Source: Candidatus Gastranaerophilales bacterium | GTDB lineage: Bacteria > Cyanobacteriota > Vampirovibrionia > Gastranaerophilales > Gastranaerophilaceae | Direction of reading: 5' to 3' | Assembly: GCA_944326605.1 (NCBI GenBank) | Contig: CALVEM010000010.1 | Span: 1-64,000 of the forward strand | Length of the DNA stretch: 64,000 nucleotides | In this document: piece by piece, positions 2,445 through 32,940 of the stretch | How positions within the stretch are numbered: position 1 is the stretch's first letter | Layout of the letters: every line of letters begins with the position of its first letter | The notes under the pieces: model-generated | Told to the model about the DNA's origin: nothing | Databases searched by the model: none | What the model saw: the letters and a program-made list of their open reading frames with translations, nothing else | Translations under genes and position numbers: made by a program

Positions 2445-3236
2445 TTAATCAAAAGTAAGCTTTAAGCCGGAATACACTTCTTTGACTTTTAAATATTCTG
2501 ATAACACAAGTTTTGAATTTAGATCACAGCAGTGACCGGGATAGAAATTTTTAATATTCAATGTCCTCAAATAAATTCCAAGTTCTCTTATTTTGTATTC
2601 GGTTTTGTCGCGAAGGAAAACTCCGCCTATAAGTGTATTAATTCGTTCTTCACGTGTGACTTTTTTTGCGTGTTCTATTATGTTTGGCAGTCCAATATGC
2701 GAACATCCTGCCATAATGACAAGTCCGTCAACTCCTTTATAAACAACCGCTGATTCATCCGTGTATTTGTAATCACTTTTATACTTAATAGGTATTTCGC
2801 CGAGGAAAACTAATTTAGAAGTTAACCATACCGGTTCATAAGATAATTCTATATCAAATACATCACATAAATCTCCTGCATTCCCCGGAAAACCGACATT
2901 ATGTTTTTGAGAATCCAATTTAGGCTCAAAAACGTCAGGGTGGGCATAAATACTTTTATGAGTAAGACTTATTCCGGCAGCAAGCATTTTTCTGTATAAA
3001 ATATCTAGTCTGATAAGCCCTGCGGTATGGTCATTGTGCCCGTGAGACAATATTATTTCTGTTACTTCAGTAAGGTCAAGACCCATTTTATACGCATTTT
3101 TTATAAAGATATCGCTGTAACCGCAGTCAAATAAAATTTTCTGGTAGTCATTTTCAAGCAGAAATGAAAGCCCCGGTTCGGCTAACATATTAAGATTACA
3201 TCCAGCATTGTTGTCAACTAATACCGTAAAATTCAT
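2445..3236 (-). CDS. MBL-fold metallo-hydrolase (COG1237-like)
   Basis: 263 aa. The metal-binding signature SHGHNDH sits at residues 64-70, with further ligands in AGCSH (176-180) and PGHC (233-236). The opening TVLVDNNAG and LLFDCG-like strand, and the GCSHIGLPNIIEHA segment, resemble the branch annotated as 7,8-dihydropterin-6-methyl-4-(beta-D-ribofuranosyl)-aminobenzene-5'-phosphate synthase-like proteins. In archaea that activity belongs to methanopterin synthesis, which is unlikely here, so the substrate is unknown. It lies upstream of rpmI in the same direction but is probably a separate transcript, because rpmI has its own promoter. Confidence 0.85.
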   Translation of the reverse strand: MNFTVLVDNNAGCNLNMLAEPGLSFLLENDYQKILFDCGYSDIFIKNAYKMGLDLTEVTEIILSHGHNDHTAGLIRLDILYRKMLAAGISLTHKSIYAHPDVFEPKLDSQKHNVGFPGNAGDLCDVFDIELSYEPVWLTSKLVFLGEIPIKYKSDYKYTDESAVVYKGVDGLVIMAGCSHIGLPNIIEHAKKVTREERINTLIGGVFLRDKTEYKIRELGIYLRTLNIKNFYPGHCCDLNSKLVLSEYLKVKEVYSGLKLTFD

Positions 3237-3299: not shown

Positions 3300-4703
3300 T
3301 TAATAAAATTTTTGTACAACCGGAAGATTTACCCCATTGCAGAAAGAACGTTCGGTCAAACGTATTCCGAGACATCCCTGATGACGCTTAAACTGCATTC
3401 TGTAAATTTTGCAAACAACTTCATCAACTATTTTGGGGACATGCTTTTTGTAGATTTCTTCTATAGGAATGTTCTGTTCAACATACATTTCAATAATATC
3501 GTCAAGAACGGCATATTCAGGCAGTCTGTCCTGATCTTTCTGACCGGGGTGAAGTTCTGCTGAAGGAGCCTTATCTATGATTGCCTTAGGAATAACTTCT
3601 TTATCTTTATTTATAAAATTTGCCAGCTTATAAACGTTTGTTTTTGTCAGGTCGCATATCAAATTCAAGCCGCCTGCAAGATCACCGTAAAGGGTGCCAA
3701 ACCCCATTGCGCTTTCTGATTTGTTGCCGGTAGAGAGAAGAAGCCTGTTTTCTCTGTTTGAATAAAACATTAAAATTAAAGCTCTCAAACGTGCCTGTAA
3801 ATTTTCTTCAGCAAGATCATGAAGTCTTTCTCTGTTCTCCATAAAAGCTTCAAATAACGGAGTTATCGGCTCTTTAACTGTATTTATCCCGAGATTTTTT
3901 GCAAGTTCAAGGCTGTCTGTTATACTGCCTTCTGATGAAAACATACTCGGCATCAAAATCCCGAGAACATTTTCGGAACCTATCGCTCTAACTGCAAGAA
4001 CAGCGGTCAATGCACTGTCTATACCTCCTGACAAGCCCAGAACAACTTTTTTTAACCCTGTGTTTTCACAGTATTCTTTCAAAGCAAAAGTGGTTACTTT
4101 TAAAACCTGTTCTTCCATAGCTTCGTCCTTAAAATCAACAGGTTTAGAAAAGTCAATTTCTGTTATGCACTCATCACATACGGGAGCTTGTAATACAAGT
4201 TCATTTTTGTTATTTTTTGCAAAGCTTGCACCTGCATAGATATTTGAATCAGCCATACAAATGGCGTTGATATATATAAAGTTACTTTTTGTTTCAATAC
4301 TTCCAACAAAATCTTTATATGTGTTCATTGCAAAGTATCTGTTTTTCGCAAGAATATACAAATCGCATTCTACATTTTCAATAAATGTATCCGACACAAA
4401 CACTTTTTGTCCGCCGATATCAAAATAACCATCCTGAGACAGTTCAACTTCTCCGTTTCTAATCAAAACATCGCCAATCAGCAGTGCTGGTTTAAATTTT
4501 TTTGAGGCAATTTCATTATAAAAATCAATCTGGGCGTTTCTGCAGCTCTCATCAAGAATTAGATCTTTTCCGCCGAGATTTTCTATATCAGCACACGGAA
4601 AAATGATTAAATCCGCATTTTCTCTCACATTATCCGTAATATTTTTTAAATTAAAATTAAAATCACCTGTTTTTAATCGAGTTTGTGCTAATAAAATTTT
4701 CAT
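3300..4703 (-). CDS. nadE: NAD+ synthase with degenerate glutaminase domain
   Basis: 467 aa. The C-terminal synthetase half is intact: the PP-loop LSGGIDSALTAV (224-235), LSTGNKSE, and DKAPSAEL/DQDRLPEY. It adenylates and amidates nicotinic acid adenine dinucleotide. The N-terminal 190 residues are the remains of the nitrilase-type glutaminase domain, shorter than the usual 270 or so. The FPE glutamate is replaced (FPCAD, 35-39), the segment carrying the catalytic lysine is missing, and no ICEDLW-type cysteine is present (VFVSDTF instead). The enzyme may therefore use free ammonia or another amidotransferase. It starts 13 nt after ftsQ with a CAGGAG site, as the last gene of the murC operon. 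nadB and nadC lie at 30.5-32.9 kb. Confidence 0.93.
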   Translation of the reverse strand: MKILLAQTRLKTGDFNFNLKNITDNVRENADLIIFPCADIENLGGKDLILDESCRNAQIDFYNEIASKKFKPALLIGDVLIRNGEVELSQDGYFDIGGQKVFVSDTFIENVECDLYILAKNRYFAMNTYKDFVGSIETKSNFIYINAICMADSNIYAGASFAKNNKNELVLQAPVCDECITEIDFSKPVDFKDEAMEEQVLKVTTFALKEYCENTGLKKVVLGLSGGIDSALTAVLAVRAIGSENVLGILMPSMFSSEGSITDSLELAKNLGINTVKEPITPLFEAFMENRERLHDLAEENLQARLRALILMFYSNRENRLLLSTGNKSESAMGFGTLYGDLAGGLNLICDLTKTNVYKLANFINKDKEVIPKAIIDKAPSAELHPGQKDQDRLPEYAVLDDIIEMYVEQNIPIEEIYKKHVPKIVDEVVCKIYRMQFKRHQGCLGIRLTERSFCNGVNLPVVQKFY

Positions 4704-4716
4704 AAATCATCTCCTG

Positions 4717-5622
4717 CTATTGTAATTTCAAATAGTTAACCTTTTCCCAGCTCAAATCCAGATATTTGACTTTTGAATCCACGAGTTTAACCTGCGGTAA
4801 AATAGACGGAATTCTTTCTATTCGTTTGAATACATTTTCATCAAGCTTGCCCAGGCGTATATTAACTGTTTTAATTTTTACGAAAACATCTTCAGGATTG
4901 CGAAAATCTATGTATTCAACAGGTTCTTTAGAATAAGTTTCAACATATCCGGTAATTTTTTCAATTAGTTTTATCTTATTGATATCCCATTTTCTGTAGT
5001 CATCGCCCTTATTACCGTACGATAATACTTTAATTGTCTTATAATTAGATTTTAACGGCAGAAATTCTCTTCCGATAAGCTTGCCGTCTGTTGTGAAGAA
5101 TGCAACAGGAGCTACTTTGGCATCAGGTGAAATAGTAATTGCAGGAATACGTTCTCTTATTATAATTTGAATTCTGGCCGGAAAAGCGTAACGTCTTATG
5201 TAAACATTTTCAACAGGATCAAGCTTCATCAAATCTTTTTTTATTGCATCTGTTCTTGCCATATACAAAGGAACATTCGGAACATCATTGTTTTTTAGCA
5301 GTGCGAGTATTTTATGTGAAGGAACAATGTTGTTATTTATGATTTCAATAGAATTCCCGCCGATACGGTTGAATGCATTTTTCTCCATATACCAGCCACG
5401 GCATTTTGAGCAATATACAAGAAGGAATATAAAAAATACGGAAAGAAAAAAACGCATAAATGCACGGAAACGTTCCTGTTTAATGCGTCCTTTTCTTACA
5501 AGACGTTCTCGGCGTTTTTTCTTAACAAGATGCTTGCCATCATCTATGGGAGGCTGATTAATTATATCAGTCTCTTCTTCATATTGTTCTTGAATTGATT
5601 TTTCTGTTATTTCTTCATCCAT
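4717..5622 (-). CDS. ftsQ: Cell division protein FtsQ
   Basis: 301 aa. A charged cytoplasmic N-terminus of about 54 residues (KKKRRERLVRKGR) is followed by one membrane helix (55-71, FMRFFLSVFFIFLLVY) and then a periplasmic POTRA-type domain (GNSIEIINNNIVPSHKILALL, with FPARIQIIIRERIPA). The C-terminus ends in LDLSWEKVNYLKL. FtsQ scaffolds FtsB/FtsL in the divisome. Family members are poorly conserved, so gene order helps: it follows ddl directly, with stop and start sharing one base (TAATG), as in many bacteria. ftsA/ftsZ do not follow; nadE does. Confidence 0.88.
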   Translation of the reverse strand: MDEEITEKSIQEQYEEETDIINQPPIDDGKHLVKKKRRERLVRKGRIKQERFRAFMRFFLSVFFIFLLVYCSKCRGWYMEKNAFNRIGGNSIEIINNNIVPSHKILALLKNNDVPNVPLYMARTDAIKKDLMKLDPVENVYIRRYAFPARIQIIIRERIPAITISPDAKVAPVAFFTTDGKLIGREFLPLKSNYKTIKVLSYGNKGDDYRKWDINKIKLIEKITGYVETYSKEPVEYIDFRNPEDVFVKIKTVNIRLGKLDENVFKRIERIPSILPQVKLVDSKVKYLDLSWEKVNYLKLQ

Positions 5623-6572
5623 TATTTATTCAAGCCTGCACTATTCAATATTAACTGTACCAGATTATCGTAATTTATCCCCATAGCAGCTGATTGTGCA
5701 GGTAAATCACTTACAGTTGTCATTCCGGGGCTTGTATTGATTTCAAGCAGATAAGGAATATCGTCTTTCATCATAAAATCAATTCTTGAAACACCTCTAC
5801 AGCCGGCGGTTTCAAAGGCTTTGACCGCTGCATCTTTTACTTTTTTAGTAACATCATCAGAGAGTCTCGCAGGACAGATAAATTCCGACATTCCGCTGGT
5901 ATATTTTGCCTCGAAATCATACCATTCGGTTTTTGGTCTGATTTCTAAAATTTCGGTGGCAAACGGCTCACCCTCACAATCTAACACCCCGACAGTTACG
6001 AAAAAGCCGTCAATAAATTCTTCTATCAAAACATCATCGTTATATTTTAGTGCTGTTTCATAGGCGGATTTCAAGTTTTCTTTTTTGTCAACTTTTGTCA
6101 TCCCAAAGCTGGATCCCTCGCTTACAGGTTTTACAAAAAGAGGATAAGTTAAATCTTTTGTTTTCTCAAACAAATCATCACCTTTTTTTACAAAAGCTGA
6201 TTTTGCCATAACAATATCAGGGTTTGTTGATAAAATTCGTTTTGTGAATTCTTTATTCATACAAAGAGAACTTGCCATAACACCGCATCCTGTGTATGGA
6301 ATTCTTAAAATTTCCAAAATTCCTTGAATACAGCCGTCTTCTCCATATTTGCCGTGCAGTGCGTTAAAAGCATAATCATAATTGCCTTCTTTTAATTTCA
6401 AAGCAATATCTTTATCGACAACAACCATTTCGGAATTTTTATACCCTAGTCTTTGCAAAGCATCATAACAGCCTTTGCCTGATCTCATGGAAACCTCGGC
6501 TTCCGATGACATTCCTCCGCATAAAACCGCAATTTTTGATTTTTTATCTACAACAGATTTAATTTCCTGCAT
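5622..6572 (-). CDS. ddl: D-alanine--D-alanine ligase
   Basis: 316 aa, ATP-grasp fold. Visible motifs are VLCGGMSSEAEVSMRSG at the N-terminus, NALHGKYGEDGCIQGILE, IPYTGCGVMAS, PLFVKPVSEGSSFGM, EEFIDGFFVTVGVL and the metal-binding end YLLEINTSPGMT. It makes the D-Ala-D-Ala dipeptide for the peptidoglycan precursor. The start overlaps the end of murB by 25 nt and the stop shares a base with ftsQ, so translation is probably coupled along the operon. Confidence 0.97.
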   Translation of the reverse strand: MQEIKSVVDKKSKIAVLCGGMSSEAEVSMRSGKGCYDALQRLGYKNSEMVVVDKDIALKLKEGNYDYAFNALHGKYGEDGCIQGILEILRIPYTGCGVMASSLCMNKEFTKRILSTNPDIVMAKSAFVKKGDDLFEKTKDLTYPLFVKPVSEGSSFGMTKVDKKENLKSAYETALKYNDDVLIEEFIDGFFVTVGVLDCEGEPFATEILEIRPKTEWYDFEAKYTSGMSEFICPARLSDDVTKKVKDAAVKAFETAGCRGVSRIDFMMKDDIPYLLEINTSPGMTTVSDLPAQSAAMGINYDNLVQLILNSAGLNK

Positions 6573-7444
6573 AATTCAACCTCTTTTTCATTTTTCCCGC
6601 CGAGATATCTTACCTCTGGTTTTAATTCTACATTAAACTTTTCTTTTACACGCGAATACATTTCATACATTAATTCTAAAATATCTAAAGATGTTGCACT
6701 CCCGTCATTTATAATAAAGTTTGCGTGATTTTCCCAAACATGTGCACCGCCTATTTTAAGTCCTTTAACACCTGCCTCATCCAAAAGCCGCCCAGCAGAA
6801 TCACCTTCCGGATTTCTGAAGGTACTGCCGCAGTTAGGCAATGTTAATGACGGCTGCTTATTCTGTCTGAAAGATAAGTTTTCATTCATTTTTTCCTGAA
6901 TTTTATCTTGAGATGTTTCAGTAAGTTCAAATTCCGCTTCTAATACGGAATACGGTTTTCTCTGGCAAATTGAAGTCCTGTAGCTGAATTCCATATCAGA
7001 ATTGCTTAATGTTATGACACCTTTTTGCGGACAGTAAACTTTAGCAGATTTTAGAACATCAGCAATCATCTGCCCGTGCGCGCCTGCATTCATAAAGACT
7101 TCTCCGCCCACGGAGCCTGGGAATGCTATCATAAATTCAAGCCCGCTTAATCCGTTTTCAAGTGCGAGTTTTGATAATTTTGTACCTCTGACACCTGCGC
7201 CTGCAATAACTTTGCTGCCCTTAAAGTCTATTTTATCCATTTTTTTTGTCAGAATAAGGGCACCGTCGTATCCGTCAGATGATGCAAGTACATTGGACAG
7301 GTTGCCTGCTACAAAGGCGTCCGGTTCTTTTTCAATTGTCTTAACAAATTCTTCAATACTTTCAGGGAAATATGTTCTTGCAATTGCACCGCCGACTTTG
7401 AATGATGTTAAATTTTTTATTTCAAAATTTTCTTTATAATCCAA
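6548..7444 (-). CDS. murB: UDP-N-acetylenolpyruvoylglucosamine reductase
   Basis: 298 aa. FAD-binding segments are visible (FKVGGAIARTYFPES, AGAGVRGTKLSKLALENGLSGLEFMIAFPGSVGGEVFMNAGAHG), as are YRTSICQ, the proton-donor region PNCGSTFRNPEGDSAGRLLD and the late glutamate in LKPEVRYLG. It reduces UDP-GlcNAc-enolpyruvate to UDP-MurNAc. It overlaps murC by 11 nt at its start and ddl by 25 nt at its end. The murC-murB pairing matches Firmicutes and cyanobacterial gene orders. Confidence 0.97.
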   Translation of the reverse strand: MDYKENFEIKNLTSFKVGGAIARTYFPESIEEFVKTIEKEPDAFVAGNLSNVLASSDGYDGALILTKKMDKIDFKGSKVIAGAGVRGTKLSKLALENGLSGLEFMIAFPGSVGGEVFMNAGAHGQMIADVLKSAKVYCPQKGVITLSNSDMEFSYRTSICQRKPYSVLEAEFELTETSQDKIQEKMNENLSFRQNKQPSLTLPNCGSTFRNPEGDSAGRLLDEAGVKGLKIGGAHVWENHANFIINDGSATSLDILELMYEMYSRVKEKFNVELKPEVRYLGGKNEKEVELCRKLNLL

Positions 7445-8810
7445 TTTTTACACCTTCTTTATCTAGTGTTAAAAGCTCTTTGCCTAGATTTGTAATTGTA
7501 CCGGCGCCAAGTCCTATTACTACATCATTATTTTTCAATTCAGGATAAAGTTTTTTTGCAACATCACTGATAGATCCTGAAAGATATTCGCAGTTTACTT
7601 TTTGGGAAAGTTGTTCTGCAAATTTTTCAGAATTTATGCCTTCAATTGCATCCTCTGATGCGCTGTAAACATCTGTTACAATTACTTTATCGACATTATC
7701 AAAGGCGTTTAAAAATTCGTCCCATAAATTTTTTAATCTGGTATATCTGTGCGGTTGGAAAACTGCAATAATATTTTTACCGTGCATACCTTCAGCAGAT
7801 GACAGCGTCGCCTTAATTTCTGTCGGATGATGCGCATAATCATCATAAATAGTTACCCCGTCAAATTCTCCGACTTTCTGAAATCTCCTTCCCATGCCTG
7901 AAAAGGTTGCAAAATGCGGTTTAACAACACTAATATCAACTCCTGCCTGATGTAAGCTTGCAAGAACCGATAATGCGTTATAAACATTATGCCTTCCGCG
8001 CAGAATAATTTTTAAATCAGTTAAAAATTCACCTTTGTAGTAAATATCAAATGTTGTGCAATCAGGTTTATAGCTGATGTTTACGGCTTTATAATCAGCA
8101 TCGTTTTCAAGAGCGTATGTCATTGTTTTGTGCCCGTGCAGGCTCATAGTTGCTTTGCAGTCGGCATTTACCAGCACAAGTGAACTGTCAGGTATTTTTG
8201 AAATAAATTTATCAAATGTTGAAAGAATTGATTTCAAACCGTCTTTGTAAAAATCCAGATGATCAGGTTCAAGGTTGTTAATAACGCAAATATTAGGACA
8301 ATATTTAACTATAGTACCGTCGCTTTCGTCAAGTTCTGCAACGAAAAATTTCCCATCCTGCGAGTGTGCGTTAGTTTCAAGAGAAGGAATAATTCCTCCG
8401 ACTACGTAAGATGGTTTTAGCCCGGCTTTTTCAAGAACATAAGATGAAAGGCCGCTTGTCGTTGTTTTCCCGTGAGTTCCCGAGTACCCTAAGAAAAACT
8501 TGCCCCATCGTGAAATTTCGGCTAAAATATCAGATCTGTGATAAACTGTTAATCCAAGCTCTCTTGCTCTTATCATTTCGGGGTTATTTTCGCGGATTGC
8601 TGTGCTCGCAACAACTATGGCATCAGGCGGTACATTTTCAGCCCTTTGACCTATGTAAACTTTAGCACCTAAATCTCTTAATTTTTGAATATATTTACTG
8701 TCAACTATATCCGAGCCTGAAACATCGCATCCGTTTTCCAGCAGATACTTTGCCAGACCGCTCATTCCTACACCGCCTATTGCGATAAAATAATACTTTT
8801 TATTTTTCAA
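7434..8810 (-). CDS. murC: UDP-N-acetylmuramate--L-alanine ligase
   Basis: 458 aa. The N-terminal Rossmann segment is FIAIGGVGMSGLAKYLLENG, and the ATP-binding loop is YSGTHGKTTTSGL (about residue 110). Also present are the conserved LDESDGTIVKYCP, NLEPDHLDFY, and DDYAHHPTEIKATL with PHRYTRL in the C-terminal domain. It adds the first amino acid of the peptidoglycan stem and opens the operon murC-murB-ddl-ftsQ-nadE. The 160-nt gap upstream separates it from leuS and contains the leuS terminator. Confidence 0.98.
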   Translation of the reverse strand: MKNKKYYFIAIGGVGMSGLAKYLLENGCDVSGSDIVDSKYIQKLRDLGAKVYIGQRAENVPPDAIVVASTAIRENNPEMIRARELGLTVYHRSDILAEISRWGKFFLGYSGTHGKTTTSGLSSYVLEKAGLKPSYVVGGIIPSLETNAHSQDGKFFVAELDESDGTIVKYCPNICVINNLEPDHLDFYKDGLKSILSTFDKFISKIPDSSLVLVNADCKATMSLHGHKTMTYALENDADYKAVNISYKPDCTTFDIYYKGEFLTDLKIILRGRHNVYNALSVLASLHQAGVDISVVKPHFATFSGMGRRFQKVGEFDGVTIYDDYAHHPTEIKATLSSAEGMHGKNIIAVFQPHRYTRLKNLWDEFLNAFDNVDKVIVTDVYSASEDAIEGINSEKFAEQLSQKVNCEYLSGSISDVAKKLYPELKNNDVVIGLGAGTITNLGKELLTLDKEGVKIGL

Positions 8811-15787: not shown

Positions 15788-17113
15788 ATGATAAAAAAGA
15801 TAAAGTTTTACCTGTCATTAATAATTGCGAGATGTGCATATCTTGGGATAAAAATTTTGAATAAATCATCTGGCACCTCTTTTGTAGGAATGCTGGTTTT
15901 GAAAATATGCCCCGATTTTCTTAAATACTGCCCGAAATATATAAAAAAAAGAATTGTTACTATAACAGGCACAAACGGGAAATCAACCACTTCAGGAATT
16001 ATTGCCCATATTCTTGAAACAGCCCATCAAAATGTCATTCATAATCTAAAAGGCGCAAATATGCTTACCGGAGTGGCTAATGTATTTGCTCTATGTGTCA
16101 GACCGTTTATAAGATTTGATTATGCTGTTATTGAATCTGATGAAGCTTATTTGTCAAAGCTTTATGATTATATAAACGCCGATTATCTAGTTGTAACAAA
16201 TCTTTTTCGTGACCAGCTTGACAGATACGGCGAGCTTAATACGACAGCCGGATTTATAAAAAATGCAATTGATAAAAATCCGGATTTAAAGCTTATTTTG
16301 AATGCTGATGATCCGATTGTGGCAACATTCAACAGAACAAAATACGCAGTATATTACGGCTTTGAAAATGTTGAATACAAATGCAGCTACCAGCACACTT
16401 CAAATGCTCCGTCAGAAGTGTTTAATTGCTTCTGCGGGGAAGAATTAAGGTACTCAAAGCAGTTTTTTGCCCAGCAGGGACATTATTTTTGTCCGGCCTG
16501 CGGTTACAAACGCCCTGAATGTAACTATCCTGCAAATGTCGTTGTTTATGATGATTATTCAATAATAAATATACAAAATAGAGGAATTCCTTTTGAATTT
16601 AAGGTCGGGCTTGCAGGTTTGTATAATGCGTATAATGCTCTTGCAGCCATATCTTTTGCTTTTGAATGCGGGCTTAATCAGGAAGAAATTCAAAAAGCTC
16701 TTGACAGTTACCACGCGATTTTCGGCAGAACGGAAAAATGTGTTATAAACGGAAATCTGGCGATAATTCAGCTTATCAAAAATCCAACAGGAGCAAGCGA
16801 AGTTTTGAAAACTGTTGATTTAAAATCAAATATTGTAATTGCAATAAATGATAATTATGCAGACGGTCGTGATATTTCGTGGCTCTGGGACAGCGATTTT
16901 GAACAGCTTAAAAATGCGGAAAAGCTTGTCATCACATCAGGCACCCGTGCAAATGATATGGCAACAAGACTTAAGTATGCAGGAATTGCGCAGGAAAAGA
17001 TTATTGTTGAACCGAATATAAAAAAAGCAATAGATAAAGCGACACTGGCAGGTAAAACAACGATTTTGCCTTCTTATACAGCGCTTTTAAAACTGACTAA
17101 AGAAATACGATAA
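15788..17113 (+). CDS. murT: MurT-type Mur ligase family protein (lipid II amidation)
   Basis: 441 aa. The ATP loop ITGTNGKSTTSG (about residues 59-70), the NLFRDQLDRYGEL segment and a C-terminal DUF1727 domain (INDNYADGRDISWLWD) identify the MurT family. A zinc-ribbon insert with CFCG and CPACG cysteines lies near 215-245, as in MurT structures. MurT with the glutaminase GatD amidates the D-Glu of lipid II. No gatD is next to it; pdxJ follows instead. The partner may be elsewhere, or the protein may act with another glutaminase. AAAGGA precedes the start. Confidence 0.88.
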   Translation: MIKKIKFYLSLIIARCAYLGIKILNKSSGTSFVGMLVLKICPDFLKYCPKYIKKRIVTITGTNGKSTTSGIIAHILETAHQNVIHNLKGANMLTGVANVFALCVRPFIRFDYAVIESDEAYLSKLYDYINADYLVVTNLFRDQLDRYGELNTTAGFIKNAIDKNPDLKLILNADDPIVATFNRTKYAVYYGFENVEYKCSYQHTSNAPSEVFNCFCGEELRYSKQFFAQQGHYFCPACGYKRPECNYPANVVVYDDYSIINIQNRGIPFEFKVGLAGLYNAYNALAAISFAFECGLNQEEIQKALDSYHAIFGRTEKCVINGNLAIIQLIKNPTGASEVLKTVDLKSNIVIAINDNYADGRDISWLWDSDFEQLKNAEKLVITSGTRANDMATRLKYAGIAQEKIIVEPNIKKAIDKATLAGKTTILPSYTALLKLTKEIR

Positions 17114-30500: not shown

Positions 30501-31331
30501 CTAAATATCAAGTGCTAAATCTAGAGTTGGTGCTTTTGCAACAATTGCGCTTGATGAGATTATATCAACACCCGTTGAGGCAATTTCGTTAACTGTTTCC
30601 AATCTTACATTGCCGCTTGCCTCTACAATTGCAGTGTGGTTAATGATTTTTACGGCTTCTTTCATCTTATTAACAGGCATGTTATCAAGCATAATAATAT
30701 CAGCATGTACACTGACTGCTTCTTTTACCTGTTCTAATGTGTCGCACTCAACCTCTATTTTATGGGCATGGGATAAATTTTTACGCAATTTTACGACAGC
30801 ATTTGTTATAGAGCCTGCAAGTCTTATGTGATTATCTTTAATCATGGCACAATCAGAAAGATTAAATCTGTGTAAAGCTCCGCCGCCTGTCTTTACGGCA
30901 TATTTTTCAAACATTCTGAAATTTGGCGTCGTTTTTCTTGTATCAACAATTTTTGCCGGATAAGGAGAAACTGCCGCTTGATATTTTGCTGTTTCTGTTG
31001 CAATTCCTGACATCCTCTGGATATAGTTCAATGCAACTCTTTCGCCCATAAGCAATTCTTTTGCCGGACCTGAAATGTCTGCAATTTTGTCTCCCTTTTT
31101 TATTTTGTCACCGTCTTTGAAGTGAAAATTAATTTTTATATTGTCCGAAAGAATGTGAAAAACAGTTTTAAAAACGTCGCATCCGCATAAAATACCTTCA
31201 CTTCTCGTATTCAATTCCGCTTTTAAATAGTCTTTTTCATCAGCAAGATTTTCTGTTGTGATATCTCCATATCCGATATCTTCTTTTAATGCGGCTTTAA
31301 TATGATCTTCCATATACAGTTTATTTAACAA
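30501..31331 (-). CDS. nadC: Quinolinate phosphoribosyltransferase (carboxylating)
   Basis: 276 aa. EDIGYGDITTENL, GERVALNYIQRMSGIATETA, VDTRKTTPNFRMFEKYAVKTGGG, HRFNLSDCAMIKDNH, KIEVECDTLEQ, IIMLDNMP and VEASGNV are the conserved blocks. It converts quinolinate to nicotinate mononucleotide in de novo NAD synthesis. The start overlaps the end of nadB by 11 nt. nadA is not adjacent; nadE is at 3.3 kb. Confidence 0.97.
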   Translation of the reverse strand: MLNKLYMEDHIKAALKEDIGYGDITTENLADEKDYLKAELNTRSEGILCGCDVFKTVFHILSDNIKINFHFKDGDKIKKGDKIADISGPAKELLMGERVALNYIQRMSGIATETAKYQAAVSPYPAKIVDTRKTTPNFRMFEKYAVKTGGGALHRFNLSDCAMIKDNHIRLAGSITNAVVKLRKNLSHAHKIEVECDTLEQVKEAVSVHADIIMLDNMPVNKMKEAVKIINHTAIVEASGNVRLETVNEIASTGVDIISSSAIVAKAPTLDLALDI

Positions 31332-32940
31332 AATCGGGTACTCCTTCTTCTCTTGTAATCAAGCTGTGGATAGCTTTTTCATTTGTTTGAGGGTAGTCAG
31401 TTCTAAAGTGTGCACCGCGGGATTCTTTTCGCAAAAGTGCACAATAAGATACAAGCAGTGATACAGTTAACATATTTTTAAACTCATATTCTTCCTTGCT
31501 CTGGCATTTATAATCCCGTAAAAATTTAGATTTCAACTCTTTAATTTGTTCAATCGCGTCAGCTAAAGTTTTTTCGTTTCTGAATATGCCGACATTATTC
31601 CACATTATTTCCTGAAGTTCCTTCTTTAATGATGGAATATCAACTTCATCAGGTATCATGTCTTCATCAGAATATTTGTCAATTAAAGATTTAATATCTT
31701 CGTCAATCTGTTTCGGTGTTTTCAACTCTAATGATTTAAGATATTTCGCAACGGAATAGGCACATACAACGCATTCTAATAATGAGTTGCTGGCAAGCCT
31801 GTTACCGCCATGAAGTCCTGTAGATGCCGTTTCCCCTATCGCATAGAGGCCTTTTAATGATGTTTCTCCGTTCAGGTTTGTTTTAATTCCGCCCATGAAG
31901 TAATGTGCGGCAGGTGCAACCGGAATAAAGTCATGTGAAATATCTATACCGTTTTCCATACATTTTTTTGAAATAGTCGGGAAACGTTTAAAAAGTTTTG
32001 TACTCTCTATACAAGTAGCATTTAAATATACATTATCGACATTATGTTCTGCCATTTCGCTGTAATTTGCACGTGTAACAATATCTCTGGGTGCTAATTC
32101 TCTGCGTTCGTCGTATTTTTGCATAAATTCAACTCCGTCTGCATCGCAAAGTTTTGCACCTTCGCCTCTTACGGCTTCTGATATTAAAAATCTGTTTTCT
32201 TCTCCGTCGATAGCAAGTGCTGTCGGGTGAAACTGGACAAATTCCATATCCTGCAAAACGGCTCCTGCCCTGTATGCAAGAGCAATCCCGTCACCGGTTG
32301 CTCCGGAGGGATTTGTAGTATATTTATATAACTGACCTATACCGCCGGTTGCAAGAATTACGGCTGAGGAATATATTGTTTCATATTCCTGTGTATCATC
32401 ATTAAATACAATAACACCTCTGCATTCGTCTATGGAATTTACTATAAGTTCTACCGCCGAGGTTTGTTCATATATATCAATATTTTCATTTTCTTGAACT
32501 TTTTGGCATAATGCAAGCTCAATCATTCTGCCTGTGGCGTCTCCGCCGCAGTGAAGGATCCTGCGTACGCTGTGCGCAGCTTCCCTTGTAAAACTCAGGT
32601 TATTATTTTCATCTCTGTCAAATTCAACGCCGAATTTTAGCAAATCTTTTATAACAGCATCAGAATTTTCAGATATATATTTTACGGTATTAAAGTCGCT
32701 TAATCCGGCACCTGCCTTAATAGTATCTGAAATATGCGAGGCTGTGGAATCGTTTTTATTCTCTTTCATAACACCGACAATACCGCCCTGTGCGTATAAA
32801 GAGTTACTTTCTCCGAATTTGGATTTTGTAACTATTAAAATACCGTCAGTGAGATTAATGTTCTGTTCAATTTTTAATGCGGCATACAAACCTGCAATAC
32901 CGCTGCCGATTATTACTGCCGAATATTTTGAATATTTCAT
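31321..32940 (-). CDS. nadB: L-aspartate oxidase
   Basis: 539 aa. The FAD-binding loop is VIIGSGIAGLYAALKI, with YAQGGIVGV, HCGGDATGRMIE, LATGGIGQLYKYTTNPSGATGDGIALAYRAGA, DMEFVQFHPTAL and GLHGGNRLASNSLLE. Family members use fumarate or oxygen to oxidise aspartate to iminoaspartate; in an anaerobe fumarate is likely. It is the first gene of nadB-nadC. A terminator at 33022-33050 belongs to the gene upstream. Confidence 0.97.
   Translation of the reverse strand: MKYSKYSAVIIGSGIAGLYAALKIEQNINLTDGILIVTKSKFGESNSLYAQGGIVGVMKENKNDSTASHISDTIKAGAGLSDFNTVKYISENSDAVIKDLLKFGVEFDRDENNNLSFTREAAHSVRRILHCGGDATGRMIELALCQKVQENENIDIYEQTSAVELIVNSIDECRGVIVFNDDTQEYETIYSSAVILATGGIGQLYKYTTNPSGATGDGIALAYRAGAVLQDMEFVQFHPTALAIDGEENRFLISEAVRGEGAKLCDADGVEFMQKYDERRELAPRDIVTRANYSEMAEHNVDNVYLNATCIESTKLFKRFPTISKKCMENGIDISHDFIPVAPAAHYFMGGIKTNLNGETSLKGLYAIGETASTGLHGGNRLASNSLLECVVCAYSVAKYLKSLELKTPKQIDEDIKSLIDKYSDEDMIPDEVDIPSLKKELQEIMWNNVGIFRNEKTLADAIEQIKELKSKFLRDYKCQSKEEYEFKNMLTVSLLVSYCALLRKESRGAHFRTDYPQTNEKAIHSLITREEGVPDFVK

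Follow-up and report, generated by a model that had tools for sequence, protein, structure and literature searches.

The question raised by this locus is where a two-domain NAD+ synthetase (NadE) takes its nitrogen from when the catalytic residues of its glutaminase domain are gone. The window, meaning the whole stretch of 64,000 nucleotides analysed here, comes from a Candidatus Gastranaerophilales genome that is 99.91% complete. It carries nadE on the minus strand (3300..4703), and these coordinates, the strand and the length of the product were confirmed. The open reading frame encodes 467 residues, comprising a degenerate glutaminase domain and an intact NAD synthetase domain.

Loss of the glutaminase catalytic triad

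Pfam analysis of the window NadE returned a NAD_synthase match over residues 205-442 (E 2.2e-72). The CN_hydrolase family gave no match to this protein even at E<=1, and matched the intact relative L079 at E 5e-25. Similarly, the window protein reached 381 bits against the NF010588 equivalog model, short of the cut-off of 479 bits, and L079 reached 659 bits. It is the sole NadE of its genome; a second, weak PF02540 match belongs to a protein (L002) that reads as MnmA-like. Since the same open frame is present in all 33 genomes of the genus that were examined, chance or an assembly artefact is ruled out as the source of the short NadE. All 33 (the window's own and 32 others) carry the short form, at 70-86% identity, with the match in G029 beginning at residue 30.

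The first-pass annotation had claimed that all three glutaminase catalytic positions are lost, and alignment with 13 intact rows, of which 11 belong to further families of the order and two to records titled Bacteroidetes, bears this out. Measured against the E-K-C triad of type F, glutamine-dependent NadE, the window protein has cysteine in place of the FPE glutamate (F35-P36-C37; Cys37 codon at 4593..4595, minus strand). The segment that bears the catalytic lysine in intact relatives (K..LLP.YDVFDE.R.F) is deleted, with the junction lying approximately at residues 86-93 (4425..4448, minus strand), and the ICED segment with its catalytic cysteine is also absent, the junction here lying approximately at residues 104-105 (4389..4394, minus strand).

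A survey of homologues in the clade, which had been proposed at the outset as a check, showed that triad loss is common to the short forms. Both the Lys and the Cys segments are absent from 25 of 25 aligned short-form rows, and the triad is complete in 13 of 13 intact rows. These counts omit the partial or contig-cut rows L046, L075, L076 and L085 of the first subfamily, to which the short form belongs, together with the unaligned L119, and also L117, which gave no NadE match. Of the three losses, that of the glutamate is the least uniform, as 9 of the 25 short-form rows still have it. Within the window's genus, none of 30 aligned rows has glutamate at this position, which is occupied by Q (20 rows), C (seven), R (two) or S (one).

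The synthetase half and its C-terminal loop

The synthetase half had been described as intact, and the NAD_synthase match agrees with this, as does the presence of the SGGIDS, TGNKSE, YGD and KAPSAEL motifs in the PP-loop domain (residues 196-467; 3303..4118, minus strand). Moreover, the domain ends in an extended C-terminal loop (residues 438-467; 3303..3392, minus strand) that aligns to the ends of 5kha, 4f4h and 3n05, with the alignment reaching residue 464-466 of the window protein, and not to single-domain NadE. According to PMC3376133, a loop of this kind marks a synthetase in contact with a glutaminase domain. The loop is kept across the NadE forms compared here. Shared changes in the synthetase half were sought in the lost groups of both NadE subfamilies, and none passed the test in both.

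NAD is apparently made by way of NaAD, since two genes of the pathway lie in the window. These are nadB (L-aspartate oxidase, of the de novo NAD pathway that feeds NadE; 31321..32940, minus strand; TIGR00551 of NCBIfam over cut-off) and nadC (quinolinate phosphoribosyltransferase; 30501..31331, minus strand; TIGR00078 over cut-off).

Predicted fold of the remnant N-terminal domain

The N-terminal half of the window NadE (residues 1-190; 4134..4703, minus strand) is some 190 residues long, compared with about 270 in intact relatives, and NF010588 matches at E 4.8e-11. When residues 1-190 were modelled alone using AlphaFold2 (pLDDT 78.5, pTM 0.80), VIA-align placed the model on 4f4h with a Z-score of 17.6 (189 residues aligned, rmsd 2.8). 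Further NadE and nitrilase-fold proteins ranked next; the absence of a family from such a list is no evidence against that family. The model of the whole protein had a pTM of 0.78 and a mean pLDDT of 75.2, with values under 50 over residues 435-465, a stretch that takes in most of the C-terminal loop. It aligned end-to-end with two-domain NadE, giving Z-scores of 29.1 for 3n05 (438 residues, rmsd 3.1), 25.9 for 5kha and 25.5 for 4f4h. The alignments behind the models held 15 sequences, and the two intact relatives among them may lend the fold some support. As modelled, the N-terminal half keeps the nitrilase fold, and the earlier description of a retained but shortened nitrilase-type domain of about 190 residues is upheld.

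Selection on the dead domain and its new invariant residues

Selection on this dead domain is relaxed relative to the intact enzymes and is still purifying. Within the genus, where many pairs are close to saturation, the dead domain has a median dN/dS of about 0.20 and the synthetase half one of about 0.08. The ratio of N-terminal to synthetase rates rises from 1.5-1.7 for intact enzymes to 2.4 for the short form, and the other lost groups reach 2.8-3.8, L126, L129 and L132 being excluded from this comparison. The raised ratio, and the fact that the domain has been shortened in several lineages, are what would be expected of a neutral leftover heading to complete loss. Nevertheless, this fate is quite improbable given a dN/dS far below 1 and the derived invariants described below, and no single-domain derivative occurs among the aligned short-form rows, in which the shortest N-terminal part has 207 residues.

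Three derived residues never vary among the 25 short forms, namely Cys113 (4365..4367), Tyr123 (4335..4337) and Lys163 (4215..4217), all on the minus strand. Each differs from the usual residue of the intact rows, where the position of Y123 is proline in 13 of 13 and that of K163 is mostly Ile or Met. D114 is likewise invariant (25 of 25), and E178 is found in 24 of the 25 short forms and also in all 13 intact rows, where the catalytic glutamate is another residue. C113, Y123 and K163 suggest that the domain does more than drift, a point that counts against the explanation favoured below.

This pattern could in principle reflect a glutaminase rebuilt from other residues, for example C113-K163-E178, that still hydrolyses glutamine; conservation of these three leaves some small chance of the relocated E-K-C triad that the first-pass annotation had named as contrary to its reading. 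Such a site would explain why C113 and K163 never vary and E178 hardly does, but it is scarcely credible when both the nucleophile and the Lys segments have been deleted and when E178 is a residue that intact enzymes conserve in a non-catalytic place. Furthermore, judging from the alignment and the predicted strands, C113 would sit at the start of a strand, and it is the far end of that strand that aligns with the old active-site lining. There is a low but appreciable chance that the domain has been repurposed, with its new fixed residues serving a new essential job such as a different assembly or ligand sensing. If so, the glutaminase would have been lost repeatedly from an amidotransferase in one lineage and its shell drafted for new service.

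Nitrogen regulators, transporters and candidate partner proteins

Searches for PII found none in 25 of 25 short-form genomes. To our knowledge, PII is the one described protein regulator of this NadE type. Docking of PII on the dead domain was rejected for the short-form group on this ground. The ammonium transporter AmtB was also found in none of the 25, so ammonia uptake would need diffusion or other routes. Across 49 genomes of the family that were searched, PII and AmtB were both present only in G369 and G132, where their genes are adjacent on the contig. The absence of AmtB was considered as a correlate of a switch in nitrogen donor and rejected, because AmtB is also missing from most genomes of the family with an intact triad. 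G369 (genus g51, triad lost) still carries both genes, which is against a simple link.

These data bear on the possibility that the dead domain survives chiefly for regulation, for instance as the allosteric NAD+ or nitrogen-status site of dimeric glutamine-dependent NadE. In dimeric two-domain NadE, feedback inhibition by NAD+ at an allosteric site is relieved by PII, according to PMC7196632, and the new invariants C113, Y123 and K163 might be read in the same direction. A mainly regulatory role is nonetheless distinctly unlikely when PII is absent from every short-form genome searched and selection on the domain is weaker than in the intact enzymes.

A separate glutaminase or amidase subunit might instead dock on the dead domain and supply ammonia, which would turn the fused enzyme into a two-part one; two-subunit NadE is known from Thermus (PMC3376133). 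The window's genome encodes one intact-looking nitrilase-family protein (L003, 271 residues), which the NadE model matches over its glutaminase part (E 3e-20, below cut-off). That this stand-alone protein could in principle supply ammonia in trans counts against direct use of free ammonia by NadE. However, L003 does not adjoin nadE and scores best against deaminated-glutathione amidase (again below cut-off) rather than NadE. In addition, two near-complete short-form genomes of genus g20, G109 and G058, have no CN_hydrolase match at all, in a search that left the remnant domain unmatched in all 25 short-form genomes. That two of 25 genomes lack any CN_hydrolase protein argues against a general partner glutaminase of this class, and a docking subunit is highly unlikely. 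With PII in none of the genomes and a nitrilase-family protein missing from two, neither PII control nor a partner nitrilase offers a general explanation.

Lost glutamine synthesis was also rejected as a driver, glutamine synthetase being found in 63 of 64 genomes searched; the one without a match, G286, is 88% complete and has a lost-triad NadE. The window's genome has glutamine synthetase and, from a reading of the sequences, a CTP synthase and a GatD-type amidotransferase with active-site Cys motifs. Glutamine is apparently still used elsewhere in this genome, so that a shortage of it is not an obvious cause of the NadE loss.

Two side observations concern amidotransferases. The CTP synthase is the one PF00117 class-I amidotransferase found in the window's genome (G000), pointing to the absence of several amino acid and purine pathways. 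A MurT-like gene in the window (15788-17113) lies below its family cut-off and has no adjoining gatD, and a GatD-like gene with the Cys motif intact is located on another contig (L147, 1372-2106).

Distribution, gene order and intermediate forms

An order-wide search gave a full-length short-form match in 99 of 383 genomes, as counted from the listing, from 13 genera of one family. Named close relatives are mostly labelled Candidatus Gastranaerophilales or Melainabacteria. When 194 genomes of the phylum were searched, the NadE frames of 466-505 residues beyond that family, among the matches listed, were those of G388 and G412. Both were rejected as short forms from outside the order, the first (499 residues) being a single-domain enzyme preceded by a spurious frame and the second (482 residues) a contig-cut enzyme with its Lys and Cys segments intact.

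Partly decayed forms are found in two sister genera. In g33 the glutamate is kept in three of three rows, the Lys column reads E, E and A, and the Cys column is Gly. In g51 the glutamate is replaced by A, S or M in all three rows, a lysine still aligns and the Cys segment is gone; an in-frame TAG there is not an internal stop and is the ordinary stop at the gene's end. The cysteine is lost in every decayed row of the first subfamily, and in the short form it is the glutamate that drifts last. Intact E-K-C relatives of this subfamily are found in other families of the order, and a tree built from the synthetase half only joins the short form, g33 and g51 in one clade (SH-aLRT 85).

Among the short-form, g33 and g51 loci retrieved, every one whose upstream context could be read has the gene order murC-murB-ddl-ftsQ-nadE, which the intact first-subfamily loci do not show. 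In the window, the upstream neighbour of nadE is an ftsQ-like gene (4717..5622, minus strand), recognised by a Pfam POTRA_1 match barely over cut-off and by the conserved gene order. The conserved block continues with ddl, murB and murC (5622..8810, minus strand), which were assigned by NCBIfam and have the same order at other loci. On the downstream side, a metallo-beta-lactamase-fold protein (2445-3236), with no specific NCBIfam family over cut-off, accompanies nadE in many short-form loci. A 142-residue protein (1144-1572), with no family over cut-off, is conserved between rplT and yajQ in many loci. The Gastranaerophilales block was also seen, with a short NadE that is 68% identical, in a record titled uncultured Brachyspira sp. 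RUG745 (L041; ONYB01000006.1), which is probably mislabelled.

A further NadE subfamily with parallel losses

Most other genomes of the family have NadE of a second subfamily, which is more divergent and about 520-750 residues long. The 49 loci examined comprise 28 with E-K-C, 20 with at least one triad residue lost and one that was unscorable (L132); the loci were mostly chosen for short or unusual matches, and 20 of 49 is thus not a frequency. The losses differ in extent. In L106, L131, L133, L134 and L135 the cysteine has become glycine within a near-complete domain, L102 has lost the cysteine and kept the glutamate and lysine, and both segments have been removed in, for example, L091, L092, L094 and L100. 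Two genomes, G073 and G269, each hold one intact and one degenerate NadE copy. A 'type 1' (octameric) label for this subfamily was dropped, as the NCBIfam scores do not support it.

When the lost or kept state was placed on a 90-row tree of the synthetase half, from which L126, L129 and L132 were excluded and in which L098 belongs to no group, nine changes were required, at least five of which are imposed by branches with strong support. If losses are treated as irreversible, the best tree requires 10. These support values are those of a quickly built tree, and transfer is not distinguishable from descent on a gene tree. On this sequence evidence, related bacteria appear to have lost the triad on several occasions.

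Two further observations were made among these genomes. In genus g21 the species differ, G085 and G179 having a short degenerate NadE and G072 and G083 the intact second subfamily, which points to replacement or differential loss. In G282 (genus g34) the only NadE match, L129, is degenerate and has an in-frame TAG in its synthetase half, which may be a sequencing error, a pseudogene or a case of recoding.

A probable secondarily ammonia-dependent NAD+ synthetase

Overall, the likely explanation is that this NadE is a formerly glutamine-dependent enzyme that has become secondarily ammonia-dependent and keeps its dead domain because the synthetase packs on it. Use of free ammonia best fits a sole NadE whose Lys and Cys segments are gone in every aligned short form, together with the retained fold and C-terminal loop, the purifying selection and the parallel losses. 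The first-pass annotation had suggested a switch from glutamine to free ammonia with the dead domain kept as a structural or regulatory part. The switch is supported as the best-fitting reading, ammonia use being probable from the residues that were lost, and the regulatory role is the weaker part of the suggestion because PII was found in none of the 25 short-form genomes searched.

The ancestor would have been a two-domain glutamine-dependent enzyme of the 546-residue kind, to which the enzymes 4f4h and 5kha, from Burkholderia and Acinetobacter, are related. The present synthetase would adenylate NaAD and then take NH3 straight from solution, as single-domain NadE does. Published two-domain NadE proteins are also reported to accept free ammonia (PMC3376133, PMC6946656). 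A gut origin is described for this bacterial group (PMC3787301), and an ammonia-rich gut would make the glutaminase dispensable. The remnant domain would stay because the synthetase half evolved against it and needs it for packing and assembly.

If this is correct, a fused NadE can go back to using ammonia when its glutaminase is inactivated but left in place, a step that related gut bacteria have taken on several occasions and of which intermediate stages survive. These stages would form a natural series for testing roles of the glutaminase domain other than making ammonia, and neither the length nor the fold of the domain would predict the nitrogen donor.

Comparison with known NadE systems

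The published scheme of NadE evolution recognises fused, clustered, remote and none types, and attributes their mosaic distribution to gene loss and transfer, with no additional fusion or fission events (PMC3376133). The same source states that all characterised fused NadE use glutamine efficiently, and a fused enzyme whose glutaminase is dead falls into none of the classes of the scheme. No description of such an enzyme was found in the open-licence literature.

Dimeric NadE2-Gln (PRK13981/NF010588; 4f4h, 5kha) is among the best structural and sequence relatives of the window NadE, and shares with it the domain order, the nitrilase-fold half, the PP-loop half and the C-terminal loop. The window protein differs in lacking about 80 glutaminase residues and the E-K-C triad, and in scoring 381 bits, below the cut-off of 479 bits set for the model. 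The two-subunit enzymes (types C and R, for example that of Thermus thermophilus) share a synthetase with a loop for glutaminase contact, whereas the window NadE has its remnant still fused to it, and no glutaminase dedicated to it as a partner was found. NadE of the single-domain, ammonia-dependent class (type N; 1xng, 2e18) has chemistry like that predicted here (ATP, NaAD and free ammonia), but is without the remnant glutaminase domain and the C-terminal loop that the window NadE keeps from the fused form from which it derives. The window NadE therefore fits neither class, being set apart from the glutamine-dependent enzymes by its triad and its NF010588 score and from the single-domain enzymes by its possession of a glutaminase-derived domain, and most likely works like the latter.
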